From a virus, in IMG/VR virus record IMGVR_UViG_3300025120_000571, positions 1-23,397 of that record: a DNA stretch of 23,397 nt. The stretch is one strand, 5' to 3'. The position numbers and the translations under genes were made by a program. The notes below the pieces were generated by a model. The model was not told the DNA's origin and made no database searches. It saw only the letters and a list, made by a program, of their open reading frames with translations. This document shows, one piece after another, positions 160-11,464 of this stretch (positions within the stretch are counted from its first letter, which is position 1; every line of letters begins with the position of its first letter).

Positions 160-1314
160 CTATTCAAACAGTGTGTGTTTGGGGTCTGTCAGTGTGGCAT
201 CTATTCTCTGCTGTGCCGTGGTCACATAGTTCTTGTCCTGCTCTATGCCTGTGAACTTATTGCCCAACTCTTTGCACGCCATGCCTGTGCTACCTGATCC
301 ACAGAATGGATCCAACACGTGTGCTCCTTGTGGTGTTACCAATTGGACCAAATACCGCATCAGTGCAACAGGTTTGACCGTGGGATGATTGTTGCCTACG
401 TTAGGGATCTTGGCTCTAGTGATGGCCTGTTCGCTTCCATACATTTCCCCTGCTGACTGGTCTATTCTTTGATTACCAATATCAAATCCCCTGTGTCGCT
501 CCTTACGGCTGACTTTGGGACAGTAGAAGAACTTTTGATAACCTTCAACTTCACCCAACACATTACTTGGGTATCTACCTTTGTCATTACGGATCATTTG
601 CTTGTCGCTGTCGTTCCATTTGGCAGGTTCTGATTGTGAATACGTTGTTCTTTTTAATCCATCAGCACAATAGTCAAAAGGTTCTGATTCTATCCTTGTA
701 GCGTCTATGTTCAGTGCCCCCACACCGTGAGTCAACACATTGTCTATGGTGCTTCCTTTGAAAGGTTTACGAGCCATACATATGGGTTCGTGTGCTGGCT
801 TGAGTGCTGTCTTCCAACCACTCCATTGCTTTGCTTCTGGTGATGTTGGTATGGTTGCTCCCCTCACATTGTTCTGTTGCCAAGCGTCGCCATTGCCATC
901 GCCACCAACACGCGGATGATTGTGTTTGTATAATTCAGTCTTTTCAACACCCTGTCTTCTCTGTATGCTTTTGCCTAGGTCCTGTGCCTTGGGGAATCCT
1001 GAAGCATACAACCACATTATCTGATCCCTGATCTCAAATCCCACTGATTCTATGTTGGTAGCAAGATGATGGTATGTTCTTGCCGCTGAGAATGCCAATA
1101 GGTAGCCACCTGGCTTCAATACCCTAAAACATTCTGACCATATCTCCACTGCTCCTGTGTTTGAGTCCCATTCCTTGGCTAGGAATTCTATGCCATAGGG
1201 TGGATCTGTCACCACAGCGTCTATGCTGTTGTCTGCTAATTTTTTTAGTTCTTGTGCTGAATCGCCGTGTATAATCATATTTTGTTTGGGATGGATGTGC
1301 CGCAAAATGGCCAC
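160..1314 (-). CDS. N4/N6-type DNA methyltransferase
   Basis: Transfers a methyl group from S-adenosylmethionine to the exocyclic amino group of adenine or cytosine in DNA. With the GTG start, motif IV (DPPYG) lies at residues 37-41 and motif I (DPFCGSGSTG) at 335-344. That order, catalytic motif first and SAM-binding motif near the C terminus, is the beta class of the N4/N6 methylase family. The middle (about 100-300) is the likely target-recognition region and contains the family phrase GALNIDATRIE. No restriction enzyme is next to it, so it probably protects phage DNA or alters its regulation. Start choice is uncertain: the GTG at 1314 has no clear ribosome binding site, and an ATG at 1278 gives 372 residues beginning MIIHGDSAQEL, a typical beginning for the family. 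Target sequence unknown. Confidence 0.9.
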   Translation of the reverse strand: MAILRHIHPKQNMIIHGDSAQELKKLADNSIDAVVTDPPYGIEFLAKEWDSNTGAVEIWSECFRVLKPGGYLLAFSAARTYHHLATNIESVGFEIRDQIMWLYASGFPKAQDLGKSIQRRQGVEKTELYKHNHPRVGGDGNGDAWQQNNVRGATIPTSPEAKQWSGWKTALKPAHEPICMARKPFKGSTIDNVLTHGVGALNIDATRIESEPFDYCADGLKRTTYSQSEPAKWNDSDKQMIRNDKGRYPSNVLGEVEGYQKFFYCPKVSRKERHRGFDIGNQRIDQSAGEMYGSEQAITRAKIPNVGNNHPTVKPVALMRYLVQLVTPQGAHVLDPFCGSGSTGMACKELGNKFTGIEQDKNYVTTAQQRIDATLTDPKHTLFE

Positions 1315-1365: not shown

Positions 1366-1535
1366 ATAAGTTCGAAACATATGTGTAAAAGTCAAACCAA
1401 CGCCATGCACAAAAATATTTACGCTACCTGGTTGATGCTTGTGACAAAAGTGGGTGGACACATACAAAGGATTATGGCAATAATAGGTTGTAGTGGTCCA
1501 CCCGGCAGTCGTAAACTCTGCAAGGAGTTTGGGGA

Positions 1536-1616
1536 ATGACTGCACTCGTATTTAACTGGTGCTTGACCCACTCAAACATTATGTTTACAGCGTCATACAG
1601 CGTCATACAGCGGTGA
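1536..1616 (+). CDS. Possible 26-residue peptide with a strong ribosome binding site
   Basis: ATG at 1536 is preceded by AAGGAG (1522-1527) with an 8-base spacer, the best ribosome binding site on the plus strand of this region. The ATG overlaps the TGA of an upstream plus-strand frame (ATGA, 1536-1539), a classic coupling arrangement. The peptide starts MTALVFNWCLTHS and ends SYSVIQR, with its last third encoded by the 10-bp tandem repeats. No convincing promoter was found upstream; the nearest -10-like box (TATAAG at 1365-1370) has a poor -35. The upstream frame (for example from ATG 1381 to 1539) is not convincing as a protein. It could be a leader peptide or a coincidence. Confidence 0.25.
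   Translation: MTALVFNWCLTHSNIMFTASYSVIQR
1586..1612 (+). repeat. Tandem 10-bp repeats (TACAGCGTCA, 2.7 copies)
   Basis: TACAGCGTCA occurs at 1586-1595 and 1596-1605, followed by a partial copy TACAGCG at 1606-1612. The 10-bp period places each copy on the same face of the helix. The array ends 16 bases upstream of the -35 box of the perfect promoter at 1629, where activator or iteron-type sites are often found. The binding protein is unknown. Confidence 0.7.
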
Positions 1617-1628
1617 TGCCAGAAAAAC

Positions 1629-1658
1629 TTGACACGTGATACCCAACTGCTATATAAT
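1629..1658 (+). promoter_or_regulatory. Perfect-consensus sigma-70 promoter (P1)
   Basis: TTGACA at 1629-1634 and TATAAT at 1653-1658 are separated by 18 bases; both hexamers match the consensus exactly. Predicted transcription start is near 1665, inside the first of three ATAGGCA repeats. Transcription runs rightward, opposite to the late operon. No protein gene with a good start lies immediately downstream, so the product is likely a small RNA or a leader. Confidence 0.75.
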
Positions 1659-1663
1659 TGTGT

Positions 1664-1703
1664 ATAGGCAGTAATAGGCACAAACAAATTTCTCAAATAG
1701 GCA
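1664..1703 (+). repeat. Three direct copies of ATAGGCA at the P1 start site
   Basis: ATAGGCA occurs at 1664-1670, 1674-1680 and 1697-1703. The first two are offset by 10 bases (one helical turn) and the third by 23. They sit over and just after the predicted start of transcription from P1, a common place for repressor operators. They could also act in the RNA. Confidence 0.5.
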
Positions 1704-1838
1704 AACGTAAGGGGTGTAAAGAACGCACCGTCCGTTGTGGCAACACAATGATCAATCAAGTGACAAATGACTTTGTGAAAGTTGATCAACTAATGACTTT
1801 CACTTAATAGGTGTCCCGCTCACAAGCGGGTTTGAGTA
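1665..1838 (+). ncRNA. Candidate small structured RNA transcribed from P1
   Basis: The segment between P1 and the hairpin at 1815-1833 is about 170 bases and folds readily by eye. GGTG (1712-1715) can pair with CACC (1726-1729), GTTG (1735-1738) with CAAC (1741-1744 region), and GTGAAAGT (1775-1782) with ACTTTCAC (1796-1803, 8 of 8 pairs). The segment also contains the palindrome GTTGATCAAC (1781-1790). A frame open from 1658 to 1808 contains a 19-residue ATG-started peptide (ATG 1748, no ribosome binding site), which I do not call as a gene. I recognise no known RNA family. The supporting facts are promoter, stems and end hairpin; function is unknown. Confidence 0.4.
1815..1833 (+). terminator. 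Terminator-like hairpin after the candidate RNA
   Basis: CCCGCT (1815-1820), loop CACA, AGCGGG (1825-1830), then TTTGAG. The six-pair GC-rich stem is ideal but the T run is only three long, so termination may be partial. Transcription passing it would meet the T8 run at 1931-1938. Confidence 0.45.
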
Positions 1839-1953: not shown

Positions 1954-2037
1954 TCACGTTCTGGTCGTGTGACTTAAAAACAACACCAACAATGATATCA
2001 AAAAGAAGAAGTTTGCGAGTCATTTATGACGAAGCAA

Positions 2038-2056
2038 AGACGAACTACGTTCGTCT
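2038..2056. promoter_or_regulatory. 19-bp operator-like palindrome
   Basis: AGACGAACTACGTTCGTCT has 8-bp perfectly inverted arms around TAC. It lies 39 bases upstream of the -35 box of the promoter at 2095. Outer arms ACGAAG (2028-2033) and CTTCGT (2073-2078) enclose it together with the GTGC-TGAC-GCAC repeat (2062-2073), so one strand can fold into a three-way junction. The core GAAC-N3-GTTC resembles a LexA-type SOS box of Gram-positive style but with one base fewer in the spacer, so I regard it only as a repressor-type operator. Confidence 0.5.
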
Positions 2057-2061
2057 ACTCT

Positions 2062-2075
2062 GTGCTGACGCACTT
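2062..2075. repeat. GTGC-TGAC-GCACTT inverted repeat, copy 2
   Basis: Partner of the element at 1351-1365. Arms GTGC (2062-2065) and GCAC (2070-2073) surround TGAC. It lies just upstream of the second plus-strand promoter, between the 19-bp palindrome and the -35 box. Confidence 0.35.
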
Positions 2076-2094
2076 CGTATTTCTTGACTTCGAG

Positions 2095-2122
2095 TTGACT
2101 TCTACGTGATTTGTGTTATAAT
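2095..2122 (+). promoter_or_regulatory. Strong extended -10 promoter (P2) of the small plus-strand gene
   Basis: TTGACT at 2095-2100, 16-base spacer, TATAAT at 2117-2122, with TG at 2114-2115 giving an extended -10 (TGTTATAAT). Five of six bases match at -35 and all at -10. A second TTGACT lies at 2084-2089 but is too far away to pair with this -10. The predicted start is about 2128-2130, on the ATG of the following gene. Confidence 0.75.
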
Positions 2123-2127
2123 ATGAT

Positions 2128-2310
2128 ATGACAAAAGGATTTAATTGGACCAAAATCACCAAACAAAATCAAATGAGGCGTAATGGCACACAAGAGATAG
2201 AAGCCATGACTGATTCATTTTTAAAAAAACATAGTAAAACCAAACGTTTGGTCAAATCCAAACCAAAACCACCAATTGTATACGAATGGGATCCTAAAAG
2301 ATCTACTTAG
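2128..2310 (+). CDS. Small basic protein, apparently leaderless (60 residues)
   Basis: The only well supported protein gene on the plus strand. The ATG at 2128 coincides with the start predicted from promoter P2, so the mRNA would carry no leader and no ribosome binding site. The protein is lysine- and arginine-rich: an N-terminal part with FNWTKITKQNQMRRNG, a middle KKHSKTKRLVKSKPKP and a C-terminal YEWDPKRST. No family recognised; charge suggests nucleic-acid binding or an anti-host peptide, which is inference. Its last 8 bases overlap the end of the convergent 91-residue late gene, so the two transcripts are antisense at their 3' ends. In-frame ATGs at 2173 and 2206 are alternative starts, but neither has a good ribosome binding site. 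Confidence 0.65.
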   Translation: MTKGFNWTKITKQNQMRRNGTQEIEAMTDSFLKKHSKTKRLVKSKPKPPIVYEWDPKRST

Positions 2311-2578
2311 GACCTTTGCCACGTGGCACAAGATATTTTTTAAAATAGCCCTCACCACTTTGATTGGAATAATTTCTCATTCGCTGTTGTTCCACAGTGT
2401 CATATCGAGGCAGTAGTCTGTGAATGGTGTAGGCAATGGGTGGATCAAACACAAAACGACAACTGTGTGGAGTTGTGCCATTGCATCTGATATAATTGCC
2501 TTTGCCAGTTTTTTTCTTGCCCACACAATACCATTTGCCCCATTGGCTCATTATCTGTTCAAATTCACTTGCCTGCAT
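2303..2578 (-). CDS. Hypothetical protein at the end of the tail operon (91 residues)
   Basis: Starts at an ATG that shares one base with the stop of the tail-tip hub (TAATG at 2580-2576), so it is the last gene of the coupled tail cassette. Not recognised. The sequence has an acidic N terminus (QASEFEQIMSQWGKW), a Cys at about 18 and two more at 32 and 40, a lysine- and glycine-rich stretch (GKKKTGKGNY), and a basic C terminus. Position after the hub suggests a tail-tip accessory or the first post-tail gene. It ends by overlapping the convergent plus-strand gene by 8 bases. No obvious terminator separates the two. Confidence 0.7.
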   Translation of the reverse strand: MQASEFEQIMSQWGKWYCVGKKKTGKGNYIRCNGTTPHSCRFVFDPPIAYTIHRLLPRYDTVEQQRMRNYSNQSGEGYFKKYLVPRGKGPK

Positions 2579-4926
2579 TAGGATACCGTGTGTGCTGATG
2601 CATTGGCAAAGTTGGAACGTCTGTCCAATTCATTACGTGCCGCCACCCTCACGTTGTATACTTCACCTGTGCCCACAGGAGCAATAAAGAACGTGGTGTC
2701 ATTGGTTATGCCTGCTGTTAGATATGGAGTTGCTGAGGTTAATTTGTATTGCACAATGTATTCAGTAACAAATGGATCTGTGGATGCTGTCCAAGTGACT
2801 TTCATCTGTGATGCTGATGTGTATCCACCACCGCTGGCTTGTCCAGAACTGACCACTGTAACATTGGTAGGTGCTGTGACCTGTAATGGGTTGGGTAAAT
2901 TAATTGAGGGTTTGGCGGCCGCCGCCGCATGTCCATCCAACACATAATCATTTGAATTGTGTTCAGTTGCCACAAAGCCAAGGCTTCCTTCTGCTGATAG
3001 ATCCATGCTTTCTATACGGAACACACCGTCAAAGTTTAAATTTTTGTTGATCACACGCACTAGGTCACCCACACTCACGTTGGTTGCCGCAGTGGTGGTT
3101 GAAAATTGTATGCTCATTTTGTTTCTGCTGGCTTTCACCAGTGTCTCTGCCATGTTGAGTGCTCTTTCTCTGTGTGTGCAGTGTGGCAGTGCTATCTGTT
3201 TGTGCAAAGGTATGCTGTTGTCCTGTGTTAGGTATCCTGAATATGTGCTACTGCCAGTCGGAGGCCAAAACACATCATTAGGTTGGAAGTCAGCGTCTGG
3301 ATCAGTGTAGGTCACACGCAGTTGATTAATTTTTCTCTGTTTGCTTTCACCCTGTATTCTCAGTCCACCAATCAGTATGTCCTCATTGATCACCATGCTT
3401 ACTGGTGGTGGATTTGGTGCCGCATCAATGTCTGCCAAATTGCCACCATGGTGTATTTTAACAAAATACTTGCCTGCTTGATATGGCATGATGCCATTGA
3501 AACTGGATAATATGCTTTTGACATTGTTGAGTAGGCTGGAGCCACTGTCCAATACACCATCAAACTCACTGAACTTGCCAGAGGTGCTGGATGTGTAAGG
3601 CACAGTTTGACTGCACTGTTGGGCCGCTTCTTGTATGCTGGTGAAATCAAAATAATCATTGCTCAATCCCTTGCCATATCTTGGATTTCTAAGATAATCC
3701 AACAACACGTTGACTGGATTGGTTGAAAAAACTTCTGTTTCACTGGCGTATGCTGTGCTGTGTGCCAGTGTGCTGGTTGTAGGCAGTTCAACGGACCAAG
3801 CCACTGTGCCAACTGGTGTTGGTCCTTTAGATGATGGAAAAGGTCCCACTGTTGATGTTAATTGTATTTGATATGCACCAGCACTTGGTATTGCAATTTG
3901 TTCGTCTATGAATGCTGTTGCTGGTGTGGCGTCTTGTGTTGATACTGCATTGAATGGTCTTCCATCTGTGTTGGAGTTGAATATTGTAGAGCCATCAGAA
4001 ACCTTTGTCACCGCATATTGAGCAACCACCCTAACATTGTCTCCTGCTGTGTTGTCTCTGACACTGGCTGTGTTTGCCATTTTGATGTTAACCACTGCGT
4101 TGCTGGCTGTGGTAGTAAGAAACACATTGGCTGTGTAACTTTCACCATTTCCCACAGGTATCTTTGTTACGTTGGTTCCGCTGGCAAAATTAGCCACGTG
4201 TGCCACAGTGTTTGTGGTTCCGCTTGGTCCTGCGTTGTTGGACGCTGTAATTCCACCTTCAAATGCCTGTGTGTATCCTGATGTTACATCAAATACTTTT
4301 CTACCTTTCATCCTCACGTTGATTTTAGGTATGCCTGATCTGTAAGGATTGTTGTCTGCGTCTTCCTGTGATTCAATCTTCTTCCATTCAAATCTACAAG
4401 CCAAATAAGCAATACCTCTCAGTCTGTGATTGGAGCCCCAACCTGGTGCTTCATCCAATAAAGTTGACACAGTCTGATCGTCTCTGCCGTCAAAGAATTG
4501 TGTTTTTAATCTGTCTGAATAATCGCCTGAACTTGGTGTTGCTTGTGTGCCGTGTGCATAACTGCTCATTGGCACATCCACGTCGTCTATAAAAATTTTA
4601 TCTATGCTGTCTACCTGTCCTTCAGCAAGAGCAAGTGCCACATACAAATACTGATTGGTTGAACCATTAGTGGATACAAAAACTCTAAAGCCTCCCAGTC
4701 TTCTCTCGCCATACACAACTGGTATGTTGCCCACACCTGAATCTTTGTTTACAAGTGGTCCTAAAATTTGTTCGCTTACTTGTCCTCCAGTGCCATCTCC
4801 ACCAGGCACATCAGGCATCTTAAATGGTGACGCAACAATATCAACCGCGGCTTTGAATGTGTCTGTTACAAAATCAACAGCGTCATCAATGTATTCTTTA
4901 AATTTTTTAAATATTTTCCACCCCAT
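2578..4926 (-). CDS. Tail-tip central hub protein (gpJ/host-specificity type) with a C-terminal fibronectin III domain
   Basis: Closes the distal end of the tail and probably contacts the host surface. The first 35 residues form an amphipathic helix (WKIFKKFKEYIDDAVDFV). The phrase IPVVYGERRLGGFRVF near residues 68-83 is the conserved beginning of the tail-tip J family. Middle parts (about 210-400) are Thr/Ser/Asn-rich beta domains, probably inserted. Residues 685-782 (from APTNVTVVSSG to the end) read as a fibronectin type III domain, with VTW, YIVQYK and YNVRVAARN strands. At 782 residues it is shorter than lambda gpJ (about 1130) but in range for marine siphophages. It is coupled by TAATG to the genes on both sides. 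The ribosome binding site is AGGA before ATG 4926. Confidence 0.85.
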   Translation of the reverse strand: MGWKIFKKFKEYIDDAVDFVTDTFKAAVDIVASPFKMPDVPGGDGTGGQVSEQILGPLVNKDSGVGNIPVVYGERRLGGFRVFVSTNGSTNQYLYVALALAEGQVDSIDKIFIDDVDVPMSSYAHGTQATPSSGDYSDRLKTQFFDGRDDQTVSTLLDEAPGWGSNHRLRGIAYLACRFEWKKIESQEDADNNPYRSGIPKINVRMKGRKVFDVTSGYTQAFEGGITASNNAGPSGTTNTVAHVANFASGTNVTKIPVGNGESYTANVFLTTTASNAVVNIKMANTASVRDNTAGDNVRVVAQYAVTKVSDGSTIFNSNTDGRPFNAVSTQDATPATAFIDEQIAIPSAGAYQIQLTSTVGPFPSSKGPTPVGTVAWSVELPTTSTLAHSTAYASETEVFSTNPVNVLLDYLRNPRYGKGLSNDYFDFTSIQEAAQQCSQTVPYTSSTSGKFSEFDGVLDSGSSLLNNVKSILSSFNGIMPYQAGKYFVKIHHGGNLADIDAAPNPPPVSMVINEDILIGGLRIQGESKQRKINQLRVTYTDPDADFQPNDVFWPPTGSSTYSGYLTQDNSIPLHKQIALPHCTHRERALNMAETLVKASRNKMSIQFSTTTAATNVSVGDLVRVINKNLNFDGVFRIESMDLSAEGSLGFVATEHNSNDYVLDGHAAAAAKPSINLPNPLQVTAPTNVTVVSSGQASGGGYTSASQMKVTWTASTDPFVTEYIVQYKLTSATPYLTAGITNDTTFFIAPVGTGEVYNVRVAARNELDRRSNFANASAHTVS

Positions 4927-10963: not shown

Positions 10964-11464
10964 TTATTGGATATGTTCCAAGTGTGTTAATCTTAAATCT
11001 CTCTGCTTGCCATCATTACGCACAACAACAATTTCAATGTTTGGTTGTGCGTTCCAAATTTCAAGCAGTCGCGATTGTGAATTTGTATATTTCAATTTGG
11101 ATTTCCTTTTGTATTCATACACACTGTCGTTAGTGACACCCCAATCGCATCCAATGATGTATAATTTTTTATAACCCAAGTTTAAAGCACATCTCACAGC
11201 CATCATGCCTGAATTCTGTGGCTGACTGGACATTGAATACATCACCTGTTCAAATCCTGGTGATTGATTCCAACCATTCCTGGTCCAATATTTTACTTCT
11301 GGTTCTGTCTCTATGAATTGAATGGTGACTGGATCATACACGCACACATGGTCTACTTTTCTGTCTCTGCGGATATGATTGCATCCAAATTCTGTGTATT
11401 TTTTTTCAATGTCCAAATATGACTTTCTGCTAGGACCATTGAACCATATCACTGCTGTGTTCAT
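10964..11464 (-). CDS. Sialyltransferase/DUF115-like protein in the capsid region
   Basis: 166 residues. A G-P-S turn near the N terminus (FNGPSRKSY, 8-16), a middle strand VDHVCVYDP (37-45) and NSGMMAVRCALNLGYKK (84-100) followed by LYIIGCDWG (101-109) follow the layout of GT29/GT42-like sialyltransferases and DUF115 proteins: GPS loop, Asp after a strand, S-G-x-x-A helix, L-G-Y-K, then a strand to G-x-D. Such proteins bind CMP-sugar or similar nucleotides. It is shorter than typical enzymes and I cannot see the catalytic His motif clearly. It starts right behind the capsid terminator and has no ribosome binding site, so it may be an independently acquired accessory gene. Role might be virion or host-surface glycosylation. 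Confidence 0.55.
   Translation of the reverse strand: MNTAVIWFNGPSRKSYLDIEKKYTEFGCNHIRRDRKVDHVCVYDPVTIQFIETEPEVKYWTRNGWNQSPGFEQVMYSMSSQPQNSGMMAVRCALNLGYKKLYIIGCDWGVTNDSVYEYKRKSKLKYTNSQSRLLEIWNAQPNIEIVVVRNDGKQRDLRLTHLEHIQ

Follow-up and report, generated by a model that had tools for sequence, protein, structure and literature searches.

A putative structured noncoding RNA gene with a conserved pseudoknotted core in marine and lake tailed phages

Phage-encoded structured RNAs of unknown function are known as a general kind, and GOLLD and ROOL are phage- or prophage-encoded, structured, with pseudoknots, devoid of coding capacity and of unexplained function; they are large (many GOLLD exceed 800 nt), are often located close to tRNA islands and assemble into multimeric cages (PMC12286853). 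The manA and wcaG motifs are structured RNAs from marine metagenomes and phages; they belong to T4-like cyanophages and work in cis on metabolic or polysaccharide genes (PMC2864571). Phage-derived small regulatory RNAs are noncoding transcripts driven by host-type promoters, and they act mainly by base pairing (PMC12197685).

We analysed an IMG/VR virus contig over its full length of 23,397 bases (hereafter the window), which derives from a tailed phage with all late genes (2303-23397) on the minus strand. Among named phages its terminase is nearest to that of DSL-LC06 (52%) and of the pelagiphages HTVC112P, 111P, 202P and 026P (about 50%); for DSL-LC06 (OR003941) the predicted host belongs to the Pseudomonadota, and its terminase clusters with those of Pelagibacter phages (PMC10611076). 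Between a DNA methyltransferase gene (160-1314, minus strand) and a tail gene (2578-4926, minus strand) the region up to 2128 is without a credible gene. We consider it probable that this interval holds a gene for a structured noncoding RNA which forms its own transcription unit and, with less certainty, works in trans by binding protein or as a scaffold. Like GOLLD and ROOL it would be phage-borne, pseudoknotted and noncoding, but with about 300-425 nt it is far smaller than they are, does not match their Rfam models, and lies in a window without tRNA (ARAGORN found neither tRNA nor tmRNA). It differs from manA and wcaG in having its own promoter and in lacking an Rfam match, and from the small regulatory RNAs, with which it shares a promoter of host type (here predicted), in that conservation falls on a folded, pseudoknotted core. 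The preliminary description of this DNA had stated that no known family fits, which the Rfam check bears out: no Rfam 15 family matched at the gathering score in the window or in 11 relatives, and E-value searches gave chance-level matches only. The RNA, termed family A here, thus matches no catalogued RNA family; a nucleotide similarity search of a phage collection returned nothing except DSL-LC06 itself, and the family was not found in the literature searched.

Promoter, leader and extent of the transcription unit

The predicted sigma-70 promoter TTGACA-18-TATAAT (1629-1658, plus strand; hexamers 1629-1634 and 1653-1658, expected start near 1665) agrees with the consensus at 12 of 12 positions, with an 18-nt spacer, and is indeed, as had been claimed, exactly at consensus and directed against the late operon. 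It is the sole exact match on both strands of the window, with a chance expectation of 0.024-0.035. The related contigs L117, L125 and L209 carry TTGACA-18-TATACT and L149 carries TTGACC-17-TATACT, so that spacers have drifted between relatives and hexamers have been retained. Loss of promoter or stems in relatives had been named as what would refute the reading as an RNA; both are conserved, the hexamers in these four contigs and the stems through compensatory changes.

The promoter is followed by an unpaired A/C-rich leader (1664-1707, plus strand) with three ATAGGCA repeats (at 1664, 1674 and 1697) and AATTTCTC. A conserved promoter and AGGCA-repeat leader precede the core in the window, L117, L125, L149 and L209; no such leader was found before the core in L066, L092 and DSL-LC06, and the resemblance seen in DSL-LC06 probably arises from codons by coincidence. 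In related phages, similar leaders come after the -10 boxes of other RNAs and also of a single protein gene. The latter case, a promoter and AGGCA-repeat leader ahead of a protein-coding gene (ATGGCACAACGGG), occurs at L141:11517 (minus strand) and L145:9009 (plus strand), and we therefore regard the leader as a shared regulatory feature of these phages.

A strong promoter, an unpaired repeat leader and a T8 run at 1931-1938 would also be expected of a regulatory sRNA whose targets are mRNAs of host or phage, with pairing perhaps by way of the leader and a U-rich end. This explanation is distinctly unlikely, because the distant homologs have no leader yet retain the folded core, and because the strongest conservation falls on this folded core, whereas seeds are normally unpaired. 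The T8 run, which we tried and rejected as the end of the RNA, is absent in L209 and DSL-LC06 and lies upstream of a conserved pseudoknot strand; an Hfq-type sRNA would be expected to end in the conserved U-run of a Rho-independent terminator, and this run is neither conserved nor located after the 3' pseudoknot strand.

Since that pseudoknot strand lies at 1957-1962, the functional RNA reaches at least 1962, and the 3' ends proposed earlier (1833 or 1938) are too short. Nor is the GC-rich hairpin at 1815-1830, formerly taken as the end hairpin, a 3' end: it is internal and no T run follows it. Farther downstream, a module of three hairpins (2019-2086, plus strand) followed by TATTTCTT is conserved in position and strand in L117, L125, L149, L209 and L211, and its stem at 2039-2055 is replaced wholesale in L209 and L211, with six pairs changed on both sides. 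Judged from these sequences, the module is probably the 3' end or terminator of the RNA, which would then end near 2090. The next unit (2095-2310, plus strand) is separate from the RNA and consists of a promoter (TTGACT-16-TATAAT) and a 60-codon basic ORF, the product of which is 58% identical in L125. On the minus strand, a terminator-like hairpin with T8 (1951-1972), missed by a simple terminator scan, probably marks the point where the late operon ends; it is convergent with the RNA and overlaps it.

The preliminary description saw no convincing gene here, and we agree: the longest plus-strand frame (1658-1807) has 49 codons, and its only start, a TTG, overlaps the -10 box. A frame beginning GCKERTV is open in both the window and L125, which could be taken for a small protein gene, but the chance of this is negligible given that a proper start codon is absent, a leader difference of 2 nt shifts the frame relative to the open stretch, and L149 departs in sequence after GCKERTV. 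Furthermore, 5 of 7 changed codons between the window and L125 are nonsynonymous while the base pairs are preserved (counted by hand in alignment A1).

Other elements lie upstream of the promoter. Tandem ACAGCGTCAT repeats (1559-1620, plus strand) adjoin it directly and are identical in L117. A nested hairpin, GCAGTC..AAACTC[TGCAAG]GAGTTT..GACTGC (1497-1538, plus strand), is likewise the same in L117, and TGCAAGG loops recur in L004, L016, L017 and L125. A recurrent element, present in two tandem copies (1292-1333 and 1452-1503, plus strand), has a long perfect stem, the sequence of which differs in every phage, with ATGGCA or ATGGCC in the loop and often followed by CTTATAAG and ATATTTA; it was also seen in L009, L016, L032, L033, L069, L076, L111-L116, L125, L141, L142, L148, L149, L160 and L211, and the pattern resembles strong stem covariation.

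Structure of the RNA and its covariation among phages

Besides the window, seven distinct IMG/VR phage contigs and the complete genome of DSL-LC06 carry the RNA. We define family A by four elements, in this order: a P1 hairpin with the nine-base loop UAARRMACG, a pseudoknot between this loop and the tail, a 4-bp helix between the bases after P1 and a GGNN motif, and the internal loop GAyAAAC. All four were found in the window, L117/L002, L125, L149, L209, L211, L092, L066 and DSL-LC06. A pattern for the internal loop of the P5 domain led to L125, its relaxed version to L209, L211 and L149/L210, and a pattern of the P1 stem and loop alone to L066 and L092, in which the partners of the pseudoknot and of GUCC:GGAC agreed after this discovery. 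DSL-LC06 was spotted through an unannotated gap and has its homologous core at 751-1035 of the genome, unannotated in the record; it also scored with a P5 model, though it was part of that model's training set. A small zinc-finger-like frame of DSL-LC06 (L121; 606-797, plus strand; ..HKAQY*CQDCNKHIAWISEKDLLLLRGLKHDPS), with an in-frame TGA and unannotated, overlaps P1 of the core; we accepted this P1 despite its position at the end of a reading frame because the pseudoknot is compensated.

P1 (1713-1729) pairs GGUG with CACC around the loop UAAAGAACG, which always has nine bases (UAAGGAACG or UAAAACACG in variants); the stem is GGUG/CACC in five sequences and GGGU/ACCC in three. The last six loop bases, AGAACG (1720-1725), pair with CGUUCU (1957-1962, followed by GG) to form pseudoknot 1, the two strands being separated by about 140-280 nt in the different homologs. 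Most of these have AGAACG:CGUUCU, L149 has GGAACG:CGUUCU with one G.U pair, and DSL-LC06 and L066 have AACACG:CGUGUU, in which two pairs are altered on both sides. The four bases 3' of P1, GUCC (1730-1733), form a second long-range helix with the GGNN motif in the internal loop of P5 (GGAC, 1894-1897), which varies from GUCC:GGAC to GUUC:GGAC, GCCC:GGGC (L066) and ACCC:GGGU (L092). P2 (1734-1749), GUUGUG[GCAA]CACAAU with a GNRA-type loop, shows a two-sided change from U-A to C-G in L125, and could be extended by C1733-G1750 unless C1733 is taken by the second helix. The P5 domain (1878-1930) comprises AGGCA, an outer stem GAGAC/GUCUC, which is GAGAG/CUCUC in L149, L209 and L211 and AAGC/GCUU in DSL-LC06, an inner stem CAG/CUG, and a conserved internal loop, CCrrGGACAyr / GAyAAACC (in the window GGACAUA/GAUAAACC).

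The P1 side is separated from P5 by a variable domain, which the long-range helix P6 (1753-1874) closes; in this helix, 1753-1757 pair with 1870-1874 and 1766-1774 with 1860-1868 (window strands CAAUC and AAUGACUUU); all 14 pairs are kept, with two one-sided changes. Read by eye, L066 (ACUAUAACAA/UUGUUAUAGU) and DSL-LC06 (AAUAUUAUAAUC/GAUUAUAAUAUU) have longer equivalents. P6 encloses two hairpins: P3 (1775-1803), the nine-pair stem GTGAAAGT/ACTTTCAC that had been singled out before as perfect and is present as such, with one two-sided and three one-sided changes and no broken pair, and P4 (1815-1830; CCCGCTcacaAGCGGG), a GC-rich arm that is wholly replaced in L117 and L125 (CCGGC/GCCGG; C-G to G-C) with loss of the loop-closing pair alone. 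An RNA switch, with two TGAAAGTT copies competing for one ACTTTCA, was considered and dropped, because pairing of the 3' TGAAAGTT copy with the first GACTTT (1766-1774) explains all the changes with no broken pairs.

The comparison of near relatives shows where the sequence is held. In L117/L002, with a tail protein 97% identical to that of the window, the RNA is mostly unchanged and the GC-rich hairpin rewritten. L125 is much more distant (47% identity in the tail protein, 58-64% in small neighbouring proteins), and its RNA is 92-98% identical to the window in most 50-base stretches of 1700-1949, with stem changes that preserve pairing; the exception is 1800-1849 (58%), which holds the variable P4, and the upstream flanking non-coding stretches are mostly 52-76% identical. 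In the hand-named fold of 52 pairs for the window, L117 and L125, the sole unpaired position is one loop-closing pair of P4, and three pairs changed on both sides; the consensus minimum-energy fold, taken as the alternative, leaves three pairs broken in a single sequence.

For the core pairs in eight sequences, 112 of 112 cells were paired and six pairs had two-sided changes, a covariation score reached by none of 500 shuffles, and slid controls were 31-52% paired; the composite alignment was trimmed manually to the elements, so that the percentage paired is flattered, and the roughly eight independent sequences all come from phages whose terminase, tail or methyltransferase genes are related. 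The two-sided changes of the pseudoknot and the second helix in L066, L092 and DSL-LC06 played no part in finding those sequences. Full-length MAFFT alignments (A4, A11) misplace the variable middle and were excluded from the pair counts. A descriptor of the core matched the homologs only in 1.68 Mb of related DNA and had no match in 10 Mb of shuffled DNA. Taken together, the comparison shows conservation of a sigma-70-type promoter and, at the level of RNA, of a core of P1, loop-tail pseudoknot, GUCC:GGAC helix and P5 internal loop, with the variable domain under P6 in its middle. The secondary-structure and covariance checks proposed beforehand are thus borne out by covariation in relatives and not by folding energy, which was no better than in shuffled sequences (z = -1.47 for 1665-1838, +0.82 for 1665-1940 and -0.69 for 1708-1938); the case for structure therefore rests on comparison rather than on stability. 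Nine pattern matches in genome contigs (L126-L134) were rejected, being at chance level for the pattern and without the rest of the core, as was L208, a chance match in coding sequence; a covariance model of P5 and tail had no match in 385 genomes belonging to the same class as L126, a negative that says nothing because there is no positive control genome.

The fold also identifies the strand. Four to five of the 52 pairs are G.U on the plus strand and would be A.C on the minus strand, so that the plus strand is the RNA strand. This asymmetry weighs against an element acting as DNA (a replication origin, packaging or recombination site, with hairpins forming in single-stranded DNA), which the non-coding character of the region, its place at the end of the late region and the adjoining repeated hairpin elements might suggest; with pseudoknots conserved across about 240 nt and a conserved promoter directed into the region, the prospects of this explanation are slim. 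TnpB/Cas12-like nucleases use guide RNAs in which a pseudoknot precedes the guide, and on that model the stretch 3' of the pseudoknot strand could serve as guide for a nuclease of the host or phage. The likelihood of this is very slim, since that stretch is identical in the window, L117 and L125 despite the divergence of the phages, no TnpB/Cas12-like nuclease occurs among the gene families scanned, and the Rfam models of such RNAs remained unmatched.

Possible role and other RNAs in the same neighbourhood

The context of the core varies: in the window it has a promoter of its own and is convergent with the late genes, in L209 it lies on the late-gene strand, and in L066 and L092 it follows small ORFs. 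The core is therefore independent of any one neighbour, and no neighbouring gene is constant among the homologs (a methyltransferase gene is nearby in the window, L117, L092 and L066). A cis-acting leader, attenuator or 3' UTR element, which would control transcription, stability or translation of adjacent small genes, has to be weighed here: in L066, L092 and DSL-LC06 the core begins 0-18 nt past the end of a small ORF, or is in line with or overlaps one, and the AGGCA leader also stands ahead of a protein gene in L141 and L145. Yet the neighbouring genes are not the same across homologs, the downstream ORF has its own promoter in the window, L125 and L209, and read-through in the window would be antisense to the late operon, so that we judge such an element unlikely, if worth keeping in mind. 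Close behind the upstream ORF, the core in L066, L092 and DSL-LC06 may be part of an mRNA, and autonomous transcription is then not universal.

Because promoter and ORF context, orientation and neighbours all vary, a trans-acting RNA is favoured over a gene-specific leader. As a separate unit it would be transcribed by host RNA polymerase from about 1665 to about 2090, and its pseudoknots would give it a compact body. By analogy with RNAs of the GOLLD/ROOL kind, it might then act in trans during infection, binding protein or serving as a scaffold, a role that is our best guess, held with modest confidence. The near-invariant single-stranded pieces (UAA of the P1 loop, AUA/GAUAAAC of the internal loop) might be contact sites, and the RNA would perhaps be neither an antisense regulator nor the leader of a neighbouring gene. 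The initial reading as a small RNA is supported by the conservation of promoter and stems, but "small" undersells a pseudoknotted RNA of this length. Pseudoknotted structured noncoding RNAs are rare, and the phage-borne ones are mostly mysteries with surprising structures; the present one is compact, has a strong predicted promoter, is more tightly conserved than the adjacent structural proteins and is found in phages of both sea and lake. The core has been defined sufficiently for searching other data, for probing and for deletion.

Two further families of RNA occupy the same neighbourhood in related phages, with the same type of promoter and leader. Family B (L111-L116, e.g., L112:12294-12760, and L160:10853-11220, both plus strand) is conserved and structured, measures about 350-400 nt, follows TATACT and an AGGCA leader, and shows two-sided changes in nine predicted pairs. 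Family C (L012:6729-7260, plus strand; L011, L017, L004, L015) lies downstream of the tail gene and on its strand, is marked by GTGCTCTG..AACAC and AACAGGTATAGC.TTACCGCC, and has 19 predicted pairs with two-sided changes. Neither family B (L160 was searched) nor family C had an Rfam match. The arrangement points to a locus at which one RNA is exchanged for another, and these other covarying RNAs in sister phages suggest a common need met by RNA. We tentatively raise the possibility, without giving it even chances, that this group of marine phages reserves a site close to where the late region ends for noncoding RNAs, and that at least three unrelated, elaborately folded RNAs (A, B and C) interchange there behind a common promoter and AGGCA leader. 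If true, these would form a class of large structural RNAs of phages whose bodies can be swapped while the role is shared, e.g., against host defences or the host's RNA machinery.

A minor observation concerns the window protein encoded at 10964-11464 (minus strand), which has weak similarity to PHROG 4603 (alpha-2,3-sialyltransferase; E 2e-4); a protein resembling it adjoins the family C region in L004, L010-L012, L015 and L017.
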